35,218 nt of DNA from a virus. Shown piece by piece: positions 20,739-27,667 of the stretch (position 1 is its first letter; every line of letters starts with the position of its first letter). The DNA lies in the IMG/VR virus record IMGVR_UViG_3300047284_000481, positions 1 to 35,218 of that record, one strand, 5' to 3'. The position numbers and the translations under genes are program-made. Under the pieces are notes generated by a model. That model had not been told where the DNA came from. It did not search any database and saw only the letters and a program-made list of their open reading frames with translations.

Positions 20739-21716
20739 TTAGTATCCTCCTTCTTTCATTACATCAGATGCAGTAATAATTTCAGTTTCAGTAAAATTAA
20801 CACTTACATCATATGCAACTGGCGCAGGTCCACTCAATCCAGTTCCTTTGGTCATATGAGTAGCCCACACATTATCTGGAGTATAGTTCACAGTAATTGA
20901 TTTTAATACACAAGGTTTTATTTTTGGTAGTGATTGTATGATTACATTATCAGTTCCTGCACGTACCCAATTTAGTTCAAAAACATTTGGAACAGTTAGC
21001 CATCTATCTTGTAAATTATTTGTTGCGATGGTGGTATCTATTCCGTCGTTTGCTCCAAGTCTTGACGTGTAGTTTGGTAGAGAATAATATCTAAGAGCTT
21101 TAATGATTCTATGAATTCTAGACTGCTCACTTGCATTTCTAGGAACTAGTTTCCATGAAAAATTAAAATCTCTCATTCCAAGTCCTTTGAAGATTTGTTC
21201 TTCATATGGGTTCAAAATGACACCATTAATACCTTGAGTTAATGACTCAGAAGATAACTTTGAAACTTCACTGATCTTGTTTAGTAGAAATTCTGGAGTT
21301 CCATTTGCTGCCATCTTACTCAGATTTGCACCAAGACTAGAAACATCAGATAATGAAGCCGCAGCTAAAGCTGGTGCCATCTTTCCTAGAATTCCTAATT
21401 TTTCAGATCCCCATTGCAATTGATCACTGTAGTTTATATCATTTGGAACAGGAAGTAATACTGTAGATAATTTTGATCTCTGTCTTTTATTTGTTGTCGT
21501 ACTACTAGATACTGGGAATTCTTCTGGACTTTGAATATTCGTAATTCTATTATATTCTGAGCCTGAGTTAATGCCAGATTGTGCTATAGGAAGATATTCA
21601 AAAATATTAATCTTAAGCATATCATGCATATCTTTTACATCTGGCCAGTATAAATCTTGCTCAGATCCTGGCTGGAATGCATCAGTAGTATAATTTTTAC
21701 TTACTGTAATTGCCAT
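20739..21716 (-). CDS. 48: Baseplate tail-tube cap protein gp48
   Basis: 325 residues. The C-terminal half (Arg-Asp-Phe-Asn-Phe-Ser-Trp-Lys-Leu-Val-Pro-Arg, Ser-Glu-Gln-Ser-Arg-Ile, Val-Pro-Asn-Val-Phe-Glu-Leu, Val-Ser-Val-Asn-Phe-Thr-Glu-Thr-Glu) has the tube-like fold of gp48, which caps the baseplate with gp54 and starts tail-tube assembly. Divergent from gp4 with only 36 bases between starts. Confidence 0.85.
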   Translation of the reverse strand: MAITVSKNYTTDAFQPGSEQDLYWPDVKDMHDMLKINIFEYLPIAQSGINSGSEYNRITNIQSPEEFPVSSSTTTNKRQRSKLSTVLLPVPNDINYSDQLQWGSEKLGILGKMAPALAAASLSDVSSLGANLSKMAANGTPEFLLNKISEVSKLSSESLTQGINGVILNPYEEQIFKGLGMRDFNFSWKLVPRNASEQSRIHRIIKALRYYSLPNYTSRLGANDGIDTTIATNNLQDRWLTVPNVFELNWVRAGTDNVIIQSLPKIKPCVLKSITVNYTPDNVWATHMTKGTGLSGPAPVAYDVSVNFTETEIITASDVMKEGGY

Positions 21717-21755
21717 AAATATTTTATGATATGCCGATTTATAATAATATTTATG
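21714..21755. promoter_or_regulatory. Divergent late promoters with embedded start codons
   Basis: CATAAATA on plus (21714-21721) faces gp4; its CAT is the complement of the gp48 ATG. CATAAATA on minus (plus bases 21748-21755) faces gp48; its CAT is the complement of the gp4 ATG at 21753. No Shine-Dalgarno is visible in either leader. Confidence 0.65.
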
Positions 21756-22190
21756 AATACTTTAAAGGGAAAGTACTCCCCAACAAATGTTCATAAGTAC
21801 AAAGGTAATCCCAGGAACATAATTTATAGATCTTCTTGGGAATTGAAGTTTATGAAATATTGTGATACAAGACCAAATGTATTAGAGTGGGGATCTGAAG
21901 AGATCGTCATTCCATACAGATCTCCATTAGACAATAAAATTCATAGATACTTTGTAGATTTCTATGTTAAGATTCAAGATTCTAATGGAAATATTACTAA
22001 GTATCTGATTGAAATAAAACCAAGTAAACAAACAGTGCCTCCAAAAAAACCTCAACGGCAAACAAAAAGTTACATTTATGAAGTGACTGAGTATGTGAAA
22101 AATCAAGCCAAATGGAAAGCCGCTAAAGAATTCTGTGATGATAGAATGTGGAAATTTAAAATCCTCACAGAGTCGGAGTTAAAAGTATGA
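21753..22190 (+). CDS. 4: Head completion protein gp4
   Basis: 145 residues from the ATG at 21753. Contains Tyr-Arg-Ser-Ser-Trp-Glu-Leu-Lys-Phe-Met, Trp-Gly-Ser-Glu-Glu-Ile-Val-Ile-Pro-Tyr, Tyr-Phe-Val-Asp-Phe and Tyr-Leu-Ile-Glu-Ile-Lys-Pro, the conserved T4 gp4 (50) pattern with PD-(D/E)XK-like acids and ExK. It completes the DNA-filled head before tail joining. Overlaps the next gene (ATGA). Late promoter immediately upstream. Confidence 0.88.
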   Translation: MNTLKGKYSPTNVHKYKGNPRNIIYRSSWELKFMKYCDTRPNVLEWGSEEIVIPYRSPLDNKIHRYFVDFYVKIQDSNGNITKYLIEIKPSKQTVPPKKPQRQTKSYIYEVTEYVKNQAKWKAAKEFCDDRMWKFKILTESELKV

Positions 22191-22747
22191 GAAGAGAAGT
22201 ATCAGCAAGAACTAAAAATCAATCTGAGTTAAATATATTTGAGCAAGTAGATAAGCTTGCAAAAAATGATAAAGGATTTTATAGTAAGAGTTACAGCTGG
22301 TATAAAGATAATGTTGCTGCAGTGGCTAGAAAAAATGATATCTATAAAACTTTAGTTACTCTTGATGAAACACTGATTCCTTCTGGTGGTAATTTATACT
22401 TATTTGAATATAATGCAACTTGGGCCAAAAAACTTCCATACTATGATGAATTTCCCTTGGTTTATATGCTTCAGGGTGGAAGAAAATTTTTCGGAGCCAA
22501 TTTACATTATTTAAATTATTCTACAAGATATAAAGTTTTAAACAGTATTATAGATGGACGACCAACAATTCCGAAACAGTGTTTTCATAATTATGTTTAT
22601 GAAGGTCTTGACACACCGCTATTTAAAATAAATAGTGAAGACTGGATTAAATCTATATTTTTGCCTGTTGAAAGTTTTGTAAGTAGGCAAAGAGGATCAT
22701 ATAAACAAGTAAGCAAATCCTTTGTCTGGGGAGATTCTAAGAGATGA
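22187..22747 (+). CDS. Unknown conserved protein of the head and tail region
   Basis: 186 residues. Tyr-Leu-Phe-Glu-Tyr-Asn-Ala then Leu-Pro-Tyr-Tyr-Asp-Glu-Phe-Pro-Leu-Val and Phe-Gly-Ala-Asn-Leu-His-Tyr-Leu form a motif shared by many marine T4-like phages between head-completion and baseplate genes. In that place a structural or DNA-end role (such as gp2) would be possible, but I cannot assign it. Overlaps gp4 and gp54 by four bases each (ATGA). Confidence 0.7.
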   Translation: MRREVSARTKNQSELNIFEQVDKLAKNDKGFYSKSYSWYKDNVAAVARKNDIYKTLVTLDETLIPSGGNLYLFEYNATWAKKLPYYDEFPLVYMLQGGRKFFGANLHYLNYSTRYKVLNSIIDGRPTIPKQCFHNYVYEGLDTPLFKINSEDWIKSIFLPVESFVSRQRGSYKQVSKSFVWGDSKR

Positions 22748-23592
22748 AAAAAGATGATATCTTAAGTAGAGATATTAAAAATTTTAATGAGTTTAAATCC
22801 TACGTATCAACTCATGGATTTTCTCTTAGTAATTTCTACGACGTTCAATTTTTAATTGGAAATAATGGATCCAGTTTTTTGAAAAGTATTTTTACCAGAG
22901 GACTAGGGACTAATTCTGGAGGAAGTAATCAGGTTAGTCAACTGATGAGACTATATGCAGAAGAATGCACTATTCCTGGATATTCTATTTCAACTGGAGA
23001 TTTTAGAATTACAAATACTCCAAACATGAAGTATGCATATGGTATAGTAAATAATGAAATTACTATATCATTCATTGCAGATGCAGATTCTGAAATCAGA
23101 CAAACTTTTGATGCATGGGGAAATTATATCTACGCTGGAATTTCATCTAATACCGATACAACAAATATTTTAAATATTAATTCTAGAGATTTGATGGGCA
23201 GGACAAGATATAAAGATGAGTACACTTTAGATATTGCTGTCATTAAGTTGGAAAGATTTGCTAGCAGTAAACAAAATAGTGCTACAAGTATTATAGATAG
23301 AGTCACTGGAAAACAGACACCATATAAAACAGTACCACATTCACTTTTATTTCCTGGAGTGAATCCAGCATCTGAGAAGATGGCGACATCTCTTTTTGGT
23401 GAAGCAAGACAAAGATATTCAGTGCGTTTGAAGAACGCATTTCCGACAACAATATCTGCTATTCCTTTGAGTAGTGGATCATCTCAGTTAGTAAAAATTC
23501 AAGTTACATTTGAATATGATATGGCAGCACCAGCTTCACAAACTGGAGGAACTATTGAAGCAAGTAGTAACTGGAGGACTGTTGTTAACTAA
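22744..23592 (+). CDS. 54: Baseplate tail-tube initiator gp54
   Basis: 282 residues. Glu-Glu-Cys-Thr-Ile-Pro-Gly, Ile-Thr-Ile-Ser-Phe-Ile-Ala-Asp, Asp-Ala-Trp-Gly-Asn-Tyr-Ile-Tyr and Asn-Ala-Phe-Pro-Thr-Thr-Ile-Ser-Ala-Ile-Pro-Leu-Ser and a closing Val-Thr-Phe-Glu-Tyr-Asp are the tube-protein-like signature of gp54 (gp19-related fold). It nucleates tail tube polymerisation on the gp48 ring. Starts on ATGA overlap. Confidence 0.85.
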   Translation: MKKDDILSRDIKNFNEFKSYVSTHGFSLSNFYDVQFLIGNNGSSFLKSIFTRGLGTNSGGSNQVSQLMRLYAEECTIPGYSISTGDFRITNTPNMKYAYGIVNNEITISFIADADSEIRQTFDAWGNYIYAGISSNTDTTNILNINSRDLMGRTRYKDEYTLDIAVIKLERFASSKQNSATSIIDRVTGKQTPYKTVPHSLLFPGVNPASEKMATSLFGEARQRYSVRLKNAFPTTISAIPLSSGSSQLVKIQVTFEYDMAAPASQTGGTIEASSNWRTVVN

Positions 23593-23624: not shown

Positions 23625-24335
23625 ATGCCATTACCTAAATTAGTTGCGCCTGTTTATGAGTTGGAACTTCCTTCAACTGGTCAAAAAATTAAATATCGTC
23701 CATTCCTAGTTAAAGAAGAGAAAGTTCTTTTACTTGCTATGGAATCTGAAGATGAAAAACAAATGATCAATGCAGTTCAAACTATTCTCAAAAACTGCAT
23801 TCAAACAAAAGTTAAAATTGATGATCTTTCTATCTTTGATATTGAATATTTGTTTCTGAACATTCGTGCTAAATCAGTTGGCGAAGAGATCGAATTGAAT
23901 GTGACCTGCCCTGATGATGGCGAAACACTAGTTCCTGTTACTCTAAATGTTGAAGAAATTAAGGTTCAGAAATCAGATGAGCATGAACGCATTATTGCAT
24001 TGACTGATAAGACTTCACTGGTTATGAAATATCCAAGTATGGAAATGTTTGTTCAAAACAATTTCACTGGAAATATGAAAACTGAAGATGTCTTTGAATT
24101 GGCTCAATCTTGCATTGATCAAGTAATTGACGGAGAAGAAGTTTATGAAGTCAAGAGTTTTAGTAAAAAAGAAATTACTGAATTCTTAGATAGCTTTGAT
24201 ACCAGTCAGTTCATGAAAGTGCAGAAATTTTTTGAGACTATGCCCAAACTAAGTCATACTATTACTGTTTCAAATCCAAATACAGGAAAAGAAAGCGAAG
24301 TTGTAATTGAGGGTCTTGCATCTTTTTTCGCATAA
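23625..24335 (+). CDS. 26: Baseplate hub assembly protein gp26 (frameshift upstream partner)
   Basis: 236 residues matching the T4 gp26-type baseplate protein family: N-terminal Pro-Leu-Pro-Lys-Leu-Val-Ala-Pro-Val-Tyr, Tyr-Arg-Pro-Phe-Leu-Val-Lys-Glu-Glu-Lys-Val, a Thr-Cys-Pro-Asp-Asp-Gly-Glu turn and a helical C-terminus. It ends Ala-Ser-Phe-Phe-Ala with the Phe-Phe codons on T TTT TTC (24323-24329). A 6-bp stem starts seven bases later, so some ribosomes should shift by -1 into the gp51-like frame. Unshifted and extended products would resemble the paired tail-assembly chaperones of other phages. Confidence 0.88.
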   Translation: MPLPKLVAPVYELELPSTGQKIKYRPFLVKEEKVLLLAMESEDEKQMINAVQTILKNCIQTKVKIDDLSIFDIEYLFLNIRAKSVGEEIELNVTCPDDGETLVPVTLNVEEIKVQKSDEHERIIALTDKTSLVMKYPSMEMFVQNNFTGNMKTEDVFELAQSCIDQVIDGEEVYEVKSFSKKEITEFLDSFDTSQFMKVQKFFETMPKLSHTITVSNPNTGKESEVVIEGLASFFA

Positions 24336-24357
24336 ATCTAGCACATCAATCGCTAGA
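24323..24357 (+). promoter_or_regulatory. Programmed -1 frameshift signal (gp26 to gp51)
   Basis: Slippery heptamer T TTT TTC (24323-24329) in the correct frame; a spacer of seven bases including the frame-0 stop TAA (24333-24335); a perfect 6-bp stem TCTAGC/GCTAGA (24337-24342 with 24352-24357) with a 9-nt loop. Confidence 0.75.
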
Positions 24358-24517
24358 GAATTATTTTCGTACTAATTTCGTATTGATACAACATCATAAG
24401 TGGTCTTTGAATGAGATTGAAATGTTGATTCCATGGGAACGAGATGTATATGTTGAGATGTTAATTGAATTTATTGAAGAAGAAAATAATAGGAATAAAA
24501 ATTCTCAGCCGCTCTAG
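24329..24517 (+). CDS. 51: gp51-like extension reached by -1 frameshift
   Basis: A 62-codon frame after the slip (24329 to TAG 24515-24517) with no suitable start codon of its own: the first ATG (about 24420) is half-way in. It encodes Leu-Glu-Asn-Tyr-Phe-Arg-Thr-Asn-Phe, Gln-His-His-Lys-Trp-Ser-Leu-Asn-Glu-Ile-Glu, Ile-Pro-Trp-Glu-Arg-Asp-Val-Tyr-Val and an acidic end, the pattern of short cyanophage gp51 (hub assembly catalyst) as I recall it. As a fusion the product is about 297 residues. It fills the gap before the next gene exactly (three bases). Confidence 0.7.
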   Translation, partial: RINLAHQSLENYFRTNFVLIQHHKWSLNEIEMLIPWERDVYVEMLIEFIEEENNRNKNSQPL

Positions 24518-24520
24518 TAA

Positions 24521-27500
24521 ATGGCAGTCTCACTCTTTAGTTTCAAAAAAACGCCAGCATCAAAAATAACATCATTTGTTGATCCAACTAAATTTGGTGG
24601 GGCATTTTCTGGTGCCAATAGACCAACTCTAAAGAGTGAAGCTGCAGAAAAAACAACAGCACTTAAAGAAGTAAAAGAATTAAGTTATATTAGAAGAGCA
24701 TTAGAAACTTTAGTGACTCTTGAAAAGAGACACTTTGATATAGTCACTGATTCTATAAAAGATTTTGTTTTATCTGAAGAGAAAAAACAAGCGAGAGATG
24801 AAGAAGCTCAGCAAGAAAAGAAACCAGATAAAACTAAAAAAGATCAGTTAAAAAATCCTCTGGTCAAACAGGGAGCCAAAACTCTTGAAGGCATAGGAAA
24901 TTTTTTCCAGGGACTAATAAAAACATTTATCGCATATAAAGTTCTTCAGTGGGCAGGTAATCCAGAGAACGCAAAAAAAATTCAAGACTTTGTTAATTTT
25001 TTCTCAAACATATTTAAATTTCTAAATGCCATAGTTGGGTTTGGAGTTGATAAATTGTTCAGTGGATTATCTAAATTAGTTGATGGAGAAGGTGTAACTA
25101 GAGTATTTGGATTTCTTGAAGCTGTAGTTGGATTCTTCACTTTAAAATGGCTACTGAATCCAACCAAAATTATTTCAGATATTAAAATGATTGGAAACCT
25201 TTTTACAAAGGTAATTCCAAATGCAATTAATGGCGTAATTAATTTCTTTTCTAATTTAATTCCCAAGGCAGCAGGAGAGGCTGCAGATGAAGCATTATCC
25301 CAAGCTGGCAGGCAGATCTCAGAGGGCGCATCATCTGCTGCTAAGGGGGCTGCAACTGGTGCAGAGGCTGCTGGAACGACTGCAAAGGCAGCTAGCACAA
25401 CAGGAAAAGCCGCAGGAACAGTAGCAAAGGGAGCTGGTGCAGCGGCGGCTAAAGGTGGGGCTAAGGTTACTGGCAAGTCTTTATTGAAAGCACTTCCAGT
25501 TATTGGCGCAGTTTCAAGTGCATTTTTTGCAGTAGATAGAGCATCCAAAGGAGATTGGTTAGGAGCAGGTGGAGAAGTATTATCAGGAGCTGCATCATTA
25601 ATTCCTGGTTGGGGAACTGCTGCATCTCTTGGAATTGATGCAGCTTTGATTGGAAGAGATATTGCAAAAGAACAAGGTCTTCCAATGCTTGCGAAAGGAG
25701 GAATTGTTACTAAACCAACTGAAGCTATTGTTGGTGAAGCTGGACCAGAAGCTATTCTTCCATTAGATAAACTTGGATCCTTTGGAGTTGATGAGTTCAA
25801 AGGTCAAGTAGATAAACAAATTCCAAGTTTCATAAAATTACTTACTCTTCCATTTAAAATTATTGGTGCTGGTATAGTTGCTTTAATATCTTCAAGTGTA
25901 TCTTTTATTCCAGGACTTGGACCAATCTTAATGCCATTGATTTCTAATGTTGCATCTATGTTTGGCATTCCTCCTTCACTAGTTAAGGGAATGTCTAATT
26001 TTGCATCAGTAGCAATTAAATCTGTAGGCGAAGGCATGTCTACAGTGAAGGAAGTTTTTGGTATTGAAGAACCAAAAGTAACTAAGACTAAAGCTGATGA
26101 GTTCAAACCTTCTGGTGATACTTCAGTTAGAGGATTATTAGGAGATATTCTTAGTGCATTAATTAGCAAGAATGATTCAAATAGCAGTAGTACTGAACCT
26201 ACGACCACTCCACCATCTTCAACTCCTGCTTCATCTCCAACTCCAGATGCTGCTCCTAAAATTGGTGGATCTGCAAAGGCATTACCAGAAAATGCATCAC
26301 TTGCTAAAGCTGGAGACTCTGCGGTTCAAAATTTAGAGGGTACTGTAGATGATTTGAAAAAGAAAGGTTATCGTTATATTAACAATACTAACAACAGATT
26401 TTTCCAAGATTCTCAAGGTAGACTATATCAGGCAACTAAAAGTGGTTCCACCTTTGCTGCAGGAGATGTTTTCAAACTTCAATCTGCAACTCAAGAACAG
26501 ATTGATAAAGGTTTCACTTCACCAGGAAGTGAGCATACAGTTGGAAGTAGAAATAATCAAGAAATTCAAAGACAACTTGAATTATTCCGAATTATTAACA
26601 AAGGAGGAAACTTAGAAAAAGAAACGACAGGATCTAAAACTCAAGTAAAGAAAGATGGTAAGTGGATAGATAAAGGTGGTCCAGTCCGAGGCAGTGGAAT
26701 AGGAGATAAAATTAGCATATTAGCAGAGCCTGGCGAATATATGTTGAACAAAAATGCTGCCAGAGCTATGGGTGGACCAAAAATTCTTGATCACATTAAT
26801 CATGGAATGTTCCCAAGATTTGGTAGTGGCGGTCCAGTTTCTACCAGAAAGTTTTTAAGACTTGGCGGTGGCTGGGCTCCAGTTCCAGAAGATTCCAGGG
26901 GTGTTGTATTAGGCAGAGGTCTTGAGCATGGTTATACAGCAAGAGACTTGCCGATGCCAATTGGAACTCCATTGCTATCTCCTTTTGATGGAAAGGTTCA
27001 TGAAGTTAATAAAAATCCTGGTGGTTGGGGAAATTATATTGTTCTAAAGAGTAGCAATGGAATATTCTCATTATTCGGTCACGTTAGTTCATATACTAAA
27101 AAGCAAGGAGATCCTATAAAAGCGGGAGAGCAAGTTGCTACTAGTGGCCATCAACATGGTGGTGGAAGAAGTACTGGTCCACACTTACACTGGGAAATTG
27201 GAAGTTCTTGGAATGGAACTATTGGAGGAAAGGTAGAGCCAATAGCATGGACACAAGGAAAAGCAGTTCCATCTGTGACAGGACAAACATCTTCAACTGC
27301 AGCTACAGACACTACAAGTCAAGATCAAAATAATACTCCACAGCCAACTTGGGAAACTATAGCTCCAGCACTTGCAGACTTAGCTAAATTACTTACTGGA
27401 GCCCCATCAGCACCAGAACTTCCTCCACCACAACCTGCAAAAATTACTGGATCTATTCCTGCTAGATCTCAACAATTGCAGAGCACTCAAAAAGAAAACG

Positions 27501-27667
27501 CTGCTCTGCAAGCTCAACGTAGAGCTGGAACTCAGACTGGTCCTAATATTGTTAATGTTCCTACTGCACCACAAGTTACAGCTTCATCCACTACTCAACC
27601 ACTAGCTCAACCATTAGGGGGCACTACTCCTCCAATTCCACTATCTCTGTATCCAGTAGCACCATAA
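24521..27667 (+). CDS. Tape-measure-like baseplate protein with M23 endopeptidase domain
   Basis: 1048 residues. A helical N-terminal region has membrane-like segments (about 130-260), followed by an Ala/Gly/Thr-rich stretch (about 265-325) and hydrophobic zipper-like segments. A tape-measure-type motif, Gly-Gly-Ile-Val-Thr-Lys-Pro-Thr with Gly-Glu-Ala-Gly-Pro-Glu-Ala (about 391-415), comes next. The M23 (LytM) domain is at about 800-910: Glu-His-Gly-Tyr-Thr-Ala-Arg-Asp and the Gly-Pro-His-Leu-His-Trp zinc motif are intact. A Pro/Gln-rich tail holds a block shared with the next gene. M23 enzymes cut peptidoglycan cross-links; in a tail protein this would open the wall during DNA injection. 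Probably the counterpart of gp28/gp29 hub proteins (inferred). Confidence 0.85.
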   Translation: MAVSLFSFKKTPASKITSFVDPTKFGGAFSGANRPTLKSEAAEKTTALKEVKELSYIRRALETLVTLEKRHFDIVTDSIKDFVLSEEKKQARDEEAQQEKKPDKTKKDQLKNPLVKQGAKTLEGIGNFFQGLIKTFIAYKVLQWAGNPENAKKIQDFVNFFSNIFKFLNAIVGFGVDKLFSGLSKLVDGEGVTRVFGFLEAVVGFFTLKWLLNPTKIISDIKMIGNLFTKVIPNAINGVINFFSNLIPKAAGEAADEALSQAGRQISEGASSAAKGAATGAEAAGTTAKAASTTGKAAGTVAKGAGAAAAKGGAKVTGKSLLKALPVIGAVSSAFFAVDRASKGDWLGAGGEVLSGAASLIPGWGTAASLGIDAALIGRDIAKEQGLPMLAKGGIVTKPTEAIVGEAGPEAILPLDKLGSFGVDEFKGQVDKQIPSFIKLLTLPFKIIGAGIVALISSSVSFIPGLGPILMPLISNVASMFGIPPSLVKGMSNFASVAIKSVGEGMSTVKEVFGIEEPKVTKTKADEFKPSGDTSVRGLLGDILSALISKNDSNSSSTEPTTTPPSSTPASSPTPDAAPKIGGSAKALPENASLAKAGDSAVQNLEGTVDDLKKKGYRYINNTNNRFFQDSQGRLYQATKSGSTFAAGDVFKLQSATQEQIDKGFTSPGSEHTVGSRNNQEIQRQLELFRIINKGGNLEKETTGSKTQVKKDGKWIDKGGPVRGSGIGDKISILAEPGEYMLNKNAARAMGGPKILDHINHGMFPRFGSGGPVSTRKFLRLGGGWAPVPEDSRGVVLGRGLEHGYTARDLPMPIGTPLLSPFDGKVHEVNKNPGGWGNYIVLKSSNGIFSLFGHVSSYTKKQGDPIKAGEQVATSGHQHGGGRSTGPHLHWEIGSSWNGTIGGKVEPIAWTQGKAVPSVTGQTSSTAATDTTSQDQNNTPQPTWETIAPALADLAKLLTGAPSAPELPPPQPAKITGSIPARSQQLQSTQKENAALQAQRRAGTQTGPNIVNVPTAPQVTASSTTQPLAQPLGGTTPPIPLSLYPVAP
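27347..27396 (+). repeat. 50-bp direct repeat, copy 1
   Basis: Identical over 50 bases to 30156-30205. It encodes Thr-Trp-Glu-Thr-Ile-Ala-Pro-Ala-Leu-Ala-Asp-Leu-Ala-Lys-Leu-Leu-Thr near the C-terminus of both tape-measure-like proteins. Confidence 0.9.

Follow-up and report, generated by a model that had tools for sequence, protein, structure and literature searches.

We propose that, in a viral DNA of 35,218 bases (IMG/VR virus record IMGVR_UViG_3300047284_000481, hereafter the window) which carries T4-like structural genes, gp26 and the start-less gp51-like frame that follows it form a single recoded gene, joined by −1 ribosomal frameshifting (probability about 0.94), the predicted product of which is the long form of the T4-like tail assembly chaperone. 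All our evidence is sequence comparison. By this means we regard as established the slippery heptamer at the end of gp26, its phase and its conservation, the translation of −1-frame codons that lie ahead of every possible start, the relationship of the product to T4 gp51, and the mutual exclusion of the slippery site and a second chaperone gene.

The 3′ end of gp26 reads ..GCA TCT TTT TTC GCA TAA, with the heptamer T TTT TTC (24323-24329) in exact X XXY YYZ phase. Past TTT TTT, the −1 reading continues from 24329 as CGC ATA AAT CTA.. and stays open for 62 codons, up to a TAG (24515-24517) that is followed by TAA and then by ATG 24521, three bases separating the stop from this ATG. The earliest ATG, GTG or TTG of the −1 frame is TTG 24383, 18 codons in. 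Beyond a 7-nt spacer from the heptamer lies a perfect 6-bp stem, TCTAGC/GCTAGA (24337-24342/24352-24357), with a 9-nt loop. The original prediction, made on this DNA from its letters, had described the phased heptamer, the stem-loop, the open −1 frame and its lack of a nearby start, and all were confirmed. It had also called the −1 sequence gp51-like; the match to PHROG 634, 'baseplate hub assembly catalyst' (gp51; E=7.2e-27), bears this out, but the segment is equivalent to only the C-terminal ~60 residues of T4 gp51. Frameshifting would yield a fusion of 235+62 = 297 amino acids, with the predicted junction-spanning peptide ..GLASFFRINLAHQ...

Taken singly, the window site is weak evidence and unremarkable. 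In-phase TTTTTTN occurs four times across the 11 window coding sequences (CDSs) checked, the window being AT-rich, and the local fold (z=−1.3 versus dinucleotide shuffles) was equalled by 22 of 200 shuffles; a stem of at least 6 bp at that position appeared in 0 of 60 synonymous shuffles. Judged across aligned relatives, the conservation of the site puts it far beyond chance.

This conservation was assessed at 317 loci where the end of a gp26-type gene could be read, which gave 234 unique junctions and, when clustered at 70% identity, 89 clusters, 79 of them carrying the −1 domain; kin sequences inflate the raw counts, and clusters and disjoint pairs were used where possible. First, T TTT TTN is in phase at 221 of the 234 unique junctions and in 76 of the 79 clusters carrying the −1 domain, versus 22 of 187 for the six-T arrangement at comparable dipeptides elsewhere in the same loci. 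Second, the Z base of the heptamer varies (C 155, T 41, A 21 and G 4 at the 221 junctions), so that the run of six Ts is retained even at junctions with Leu instead of Phe in the A site. Third, the codon before TTT TTN is variable (GAT, AGT, TCT, AAT, GCT and others) and always T-ending. Fourth, the spacing from the heptamer to the 0-frame stop is 0 or 3 nt in 213 of the 221 junctions, the stop coming immediately after the heptamer in 43 and one codon on in 170. The 13 junctions without the heptamer comprise ten from Straboviridae that have a separate full-length gene 51 and three that are Ackermannvirus-like.

Translation of the −1 frame was examined in 63 unique sequences whose first 17 −1-frame codons include neither ATG nor GTG nor TTG, and which provided 27 independent pairs. 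Over codons 4-16 of this frame we counted 87 synonymous versus 33 non-synonymous single changes, giving a ratio of non-synonymous to synonymous rates (dN/dS) of about 0.08, versus 2.5 and 1.1 for the same codons in the other two frames, and substitutions were distributed over the −1-frame codon positions as 29:33:105. Since such purifying selection acts before any possible start, codons 4-16 are read as protein in the −1 frame, and the ribosomes that read them must come from gp26.

It is on this point that the best-placed alternative, namely that gp51 is a separate small protein starting inside the −1 frame, either coupled to the end of gp26 translation or initiated at a rare start codon, has to be weighed. 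An ATG does occur three codons past the heptamer in around 40 of 209 unique relatives, some GenBank records (S-PM2) start gp51 at such an ATG, and Vibrio K469 and Pseudomonas Cygsa01 present TAATG overlaps. However, of the 209 sequences, 160 have Leu and 44 have Met at the residue aligned with the junction-near ATG, and this ATG is thus an ordinary Leu/Met exchange rather than a conserved start. Furthermore, using the first start of the window would cost almost one third of the extension, the start-less codons of the 63 relatives are under purifying selection, and a separate start leaves the invariant in-phase T6 unexplained. We consider this alternative very unlikely. The arrangement that had been named beforehand as contrary to frameshifting, a gp51 start in the place of a slippery site, was encountered at only two Ackermannvirus-like junctions, those of Vibrio K469 and Pseudomonas Cygsa01 (loci L088 and L323), which have the TAATG overlap and no T6 heptamer. 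The third Ackermannvirus-like junction, that of Salmonella phage SFP10 (L089, around 2244), likewise has no T6 heptamer, and no start codon is nearby (..GAG ATT TTC ATT TAA TTTTTG..).

The comparison with T4 provides an independent view of the long form. In T4, genes 26 and 51 are neighbours on opposite strands and the slippery heptamer is gone; T4 itself, with its two separate genes, does without this slip site. T4 gp51 (249 aa) matches PF12322 over residues 1-201 (E=4e-52) and phrog_634 over residues 147-246, and it is a paralogue of T4 gp26 (E=2e-6), from which it follows that gp51 is the long form and gp26 the short form, encoded by two genes. T4 gp51 is collinear with the predicted window fusion, the alignment running through the frameshift junction, and T4 gp26 also matches this fusion (E=3e-9). 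By this alignment, the predicted 297-aa fusion is the equivalent of the full T4 gp51. Moreover, a single PF12322 gene was found in 10/10 complete genomes with the heptamer, versus two in 10/10 complete Straboviridae genomes with a separate gene 51, and the heptamer was absent in all nine Straboviridae two-gene genomes whose gene 26 end was directly read. (The T4 row of our junction table is the end of gene 51, and T6, with a gp26 98% identical, stands for T4.) The two-gene pattern is consistent with the slippery site having been lost after another gene came to supply the long form. In Enterobacter phage EC-F2 (L322, 1501-2794), long and short chaperone genes stand in tandem on one strand, adjoining gp25, a possible intermediate towards the divergent T4 layout. 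Gene 51 of Acinetobacter phage ZZ1 (L319, 679-1437) matches PF12322 in two pieces and is annotated as two overlapping CDSs of the same name, which likely reflects a sequencing error or a broken gene.

Signals that might stimulate the slip were found on both sides of the heptamer. Upstream, the Glu codon located four codons before the first codon of the heptamer is GAG in 39 of 55 clusters, the count at the other Glu positions of these genes being 342 of 1208 (p=2e-10). A complete GGAGG, present in 16 clusters, ends 10 nt before the heptamer in every case, and the GAGG core of the window ends at the same distance. Pairing with the anti-Shine-Dalgarno sequence is stronger than under the synonymous null, with a mean z of −0.94 and values below zero in 79% of 76 clusters. 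Downstream, the 66 nt past the slip fold beyond the synonymous null (mean z −1.49, p=2e-10, 76 clusters), the value for the next stretch being z −0.35. Stems occur in clade-specific registers with compensating changes, such as GGGCTCTC/GAGAGCCT, GGACTATC/GATAGTCT and AGCCCTC/GAGGGCT, the window clade having TCTAGC/GCTAGA. A universal stem, sought by global covariation in a 62-nt junction alignment, was rejected, as the top pairs track subfamily structure and not base pairing. We infer that the upstream GAGGG and the downstream hairpin probably raise the slip rate.

The same signals help to judge a second alternative, in which RNA polymerase slips on the T run and thereby generates mixed mRNAs that join the frames. 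Such slippage would agree with the conservation of a homopolymeric T run, but the run is exactly six T at 180 of the 221 junctions (Z is not T there, and the base before X is never T in the codons seen), which is short for known bacterial transcriptional slippage. In addition, the Shine-Dalgarno-like (SD-like) and hairpin signals stand at ribosomal distances, pointing to translation, and the related junctions of injection systems described below have runs of G, which in G GGG GAN are just five bases long. We rate polymerase slippage as marginally less plausible still than a separate gp51. As for a sequencing error, a decayed gene or a chance alignment, the heptamer alone does arise by chance in AT-rich genes, as the window illustrates, but the same junction recurs in hundreds of independent records and isolates and the extension is under purifying selection, which leaves this explanation a negligible probability.

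Three observations count against the proposed frameshift reading. The three Ackermannvirus-like junctions retain the −1 domain without the heptamer. The hairpin is no single conserved structure, as stems of at least 6 bp starting 4-10 nt past the heptamer occur in about 30% of weighted sequences versus 14% expected. Finally, known tail chaperones were matched by the gp26 fold below the significance threshold: the AlphaFold2 model of gp26 (mean predicted local distance difference test score, pLDDT, of 89) retrieved from the PDB, among its hits, the HK97 chaperone 2ob9 (prob 0.25, target template modelling (TM) score 0.40) and 3fgx (prob 0.30, TM 0.37), with E>1, and from BFVD its own family. 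For the −1 domain, a fold search returned no significant match, and the sequence profiles of gp26 and of the −1 domain gave no hit among solved structures. Stealth_CR2 and other weak Pfam matches of the −1 domain were dismissed as chance.

From the lines of evidence in favour of frameshifting, we propose the following scheme. Most ribosomes would read gp26 (236 aa) and halt at TAA. A minority, with tRNA-Phe in the P and A sites on TTT TTC, would shift one base back to TTT TTT and translate the 62 further codons, thereby producing the 297-aa gp26-51 protein. The slip may be assisted by the pairing of GAGGG with 16S rRNA about 10 nt upstream and by the hairpin about 7 nt downstream. The two products would be the short and the long T4-type tail assembly chaperones. 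If lambda gpG/gpGT are a guide (PMC5009743), the tape measure protein would be coated by the domain that both products share, and recruitment of tail tube subunits would fall to the additional C-terminal domain. How often ribosomes slip, how far the stimulators contribute and what each form does during tail assembly are our inference.

Several known systems resemble the proposed one. In dnaX, a −1 frameshift at A AAA AAG, with an upstream SD-like stimulator, yields a truncated product; the likeness lies in an SD-like sequence some 10 nt ahead of the heptamer and a hairpin behind it, whereas here the −1 frame extends the protein. Frameshifting of the tail chaperone is known from long-tailed phages, and the programmed −1 frameshift supported by our comparison (221/234 junctions, purifying selection) parallels lambda G/GT, as the original prediction held. 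No sequence homology to the lambda proteins was detected, and T TTT TTC and a contractile tail are found here whereas the lambda slippery site is G GGA AAG. As in the scheme proposed here, lambda makes a short major and a long minor chaperone product, in a ratio of 30:1 (work of Levin 1993 and Xu 2004, 2013 and 2014, reviewed in PMC5009743). The T4-like gp26/gp51 genes (PF12322) belong to the same family and also provide short and long chaperone forms, with the difference that T4 and its close relatives use two genes whereas the window and most relatives have one gene with a slippery site. A 2022 study by Vladimirov, Gautam and Davidson (Virology 566:9-15) reportedly deals with these T4-like tail-chaperone genes, gp26/gp51. 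In two later papers, it is cited for T4-like phages with one short and one long gene (PMC10885494) and credited with poly-T frameshift signals in T4-like TAC-N genes (PMC12846349). Going by these citations, the proposed frameshift of the window belongs to an already known kind. T4 gp26 and gp51 are both listed as hub assembly chaperones, gp51 being absent from the particle (PMC3004832). The Vandenendeviridae and Andersonviridae are likewise contractile phages with a −1 frame, a poly-T site and a C-terminal frame misannotated as a separate gene (PMC12846349), but they form another lineage and their motif is GTTTTT instead of the canonical T TTT TTN. The GeneTack survey (PMC3711429), searched for tail chaperones, mentions only an HK97-like cluster.

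Beyond phages, the −1 domain shows a weak resemblance to PF20546 DUF6760, a match that we kept because natural single open reading frame (ORF) fusions of DUF6760 with PF12322 exist. DUF6760 was found in 27/292 cyanobacterial, 20/347 actinobacterial, 21/251 Chloroflexota and 3/297 Bacteroidota genomes among those sampled, the phyla being read from the titles of the loci that served as centres. Its context was examined at two loci (L406, 7349-16819, and L454): the cyanobacterial neighbourhood encodes sheath, gp19 tube, CIS_tube, hub, gp25 and baseplate J, i.e. a contractile injection system, and the Chloroflexota locus has a sheath and two gp19 genes.

The junctions upstream of DUF6760 (loci L371, L374-L402 and L411-L451) resemble those of the phages. 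First, at 69 of 70 non-fused loci, the upstream ORF has DUF6760 in its −1 frame, and 60 of these loci have an in-phase G GGG GAN (45) or G GGG GGN (15); two further cyanobacterial loci show GGGGGA once the frame is anchored on the motif. Second, 23 unique DUF6760 junctions have no start in 17 codons, and these (11 pairs) gave a dN/dS of 0.22 in the −1 frame versus 2.3 and 5.0 in the others. Third, at two Bacteroidota loci (L372 and L373, both 877-1623), a single 249-aa ORF combines PF12322 (E=2e-9 and 1e-8) with DUF6760, which indicates that DUF6760 is the C-terminal half of a long chaperone. As matches between the upstream ORFs and the gp26 profile are weak (E of about 0.001 and higher), the identity of these ORFs as chaperones is taken mainly from their position and from the natural fusions. 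At six Actinomycetota loci (L422, L423, L425, L426, L428 and L429), an ATG or GTG overlaps the upstream stop (ATGA/GTGA) and no G-run is present; there, DUF6760 is probably a separate protein made by coupling.

From these data, we think it likely that in the injection systems of Cyanobacteria, Chloroflexota and many Actinomycetota the chaperone pair comes from one recoded gene with a −1 slip at G GGG GAR or G GGG GGN. Recoding would thus be shared from T4-like phages to injection machines, and would have been lost independently via a second gene in T4, in-frame fusion in the two Bacteroidota, and overlapping starts in some Actinomycetota and some Ackermannvirus-like phages. In actinophages, about a thousand annotations have GGGGGAA as the slippery motif of the tail chaperone (PMC10885494); this 'fivetwo' motif is the same G GGG GAA as at many injection-system junctions, the difference being that phage genes are concerned there and chromosomal contractile injection systems here. 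The literature searched yielded no report of frameshifting in injection systems, and its occurrence at their DUF6760 junctions is apparently unreported so far. If it holds true for injection systems, one step of their assembly hinges on recoding, which would be lost on routine gene cloning or codon optimisation. Phages that have one recoded gene, set beside those that have two genes, also provide a natural experiment on why phages keep a set ratio of chaperone forms.

The consequences for annotation are direct. The fusion is annotated in none of the slippery-site phage records examined, gp51 being given as a stand-alone ORF, called hypothetical or missed, and the long chaperone is consequently missing from the predicted proteomes of these phages. 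In S-PM2 (L082), gp51 is annotated from a downstream ATG, in P-HM2 (L083) it is cut to 30 aa, and in Ah1 (L087) it has no annotation; it is cut, late or missing because the −1 frame has no suitable start codon.

In the window, the order of genes leading to the junction is gp4, gp2, a tail tube-type gene and gp26 (Table 1). Both gp4 and gp2 are on the gp26 strand (21657-22747), as in Sinorhizobium phage phiN3, and gp4 is on the opposite strand in the marine cyanophages S-SM2, S-PM2 and P-HM2. The ORF following the junction was not demonstrated by searches to be the tape measure gene; its position fits, and it has an M23 domain.

Table 1. Features at and around the gp26 junction of the window (positions in the 35,218-base stretch).
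Feature	Position	Strand	Basis
Head closure gp4	21657-22190		
DNA end protector gp2	22187-22747		
Tail tube-type protein, upstream neighbour	22744-23592	+	PF23849 E=1.3e-12; phrog_45 E=1.6e-27
gp26 ORF, short tail assembly chaperone form (TAC-N), 236 aa	23625-24335	+	PF12322 E=1.5e-76; phrog_150 E=3.7e-84
GAGGG, Shine-Dalgarno-like candidate stimulator (Glu-Gly codons GAG GGT)	24309-24313	+	Putative function
Slippery heptamer T TTT TTC, X XXY YYZ phase	24323-24329	+	Sequence; family conservation
0-frame stop TAA, one codon past heptamer	24333-24335	+	Sequence
Stem-loop TCTAGC-ACATCAATC-GCTAGA, candidate downstream stimulator	24337-24357	+	Folding; synonymous nulls
−1 frame extension, long-form C-terminal domain (T4 gp51 C-terminus), 62 codons + TAG	24329-24517	+	phrog_634 E=7.2e-27; no start codon before 24383
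Predicted frameshift product gp26-51, 297 aa (TAC-NC)	23625-24517	+	Predicted; T4 gp51 collinear across junction
1048-aa protein with M23 peptidase domain, tape measure position	24521-27667	+	PF01551 E=2.2e-19

A gp26 fragment of T4-like cyanophage type, 61% identical to gp26 of the window, is contained in CP070695.1, a 4.94-Mb chromosome assigned to 'Candidatus Heimdallarchaeota'. Other archaeal and bacterial metagenome-assembled genomes also carry gp26 loci, a distribution that probably results from mis-binning or mis-assembly.
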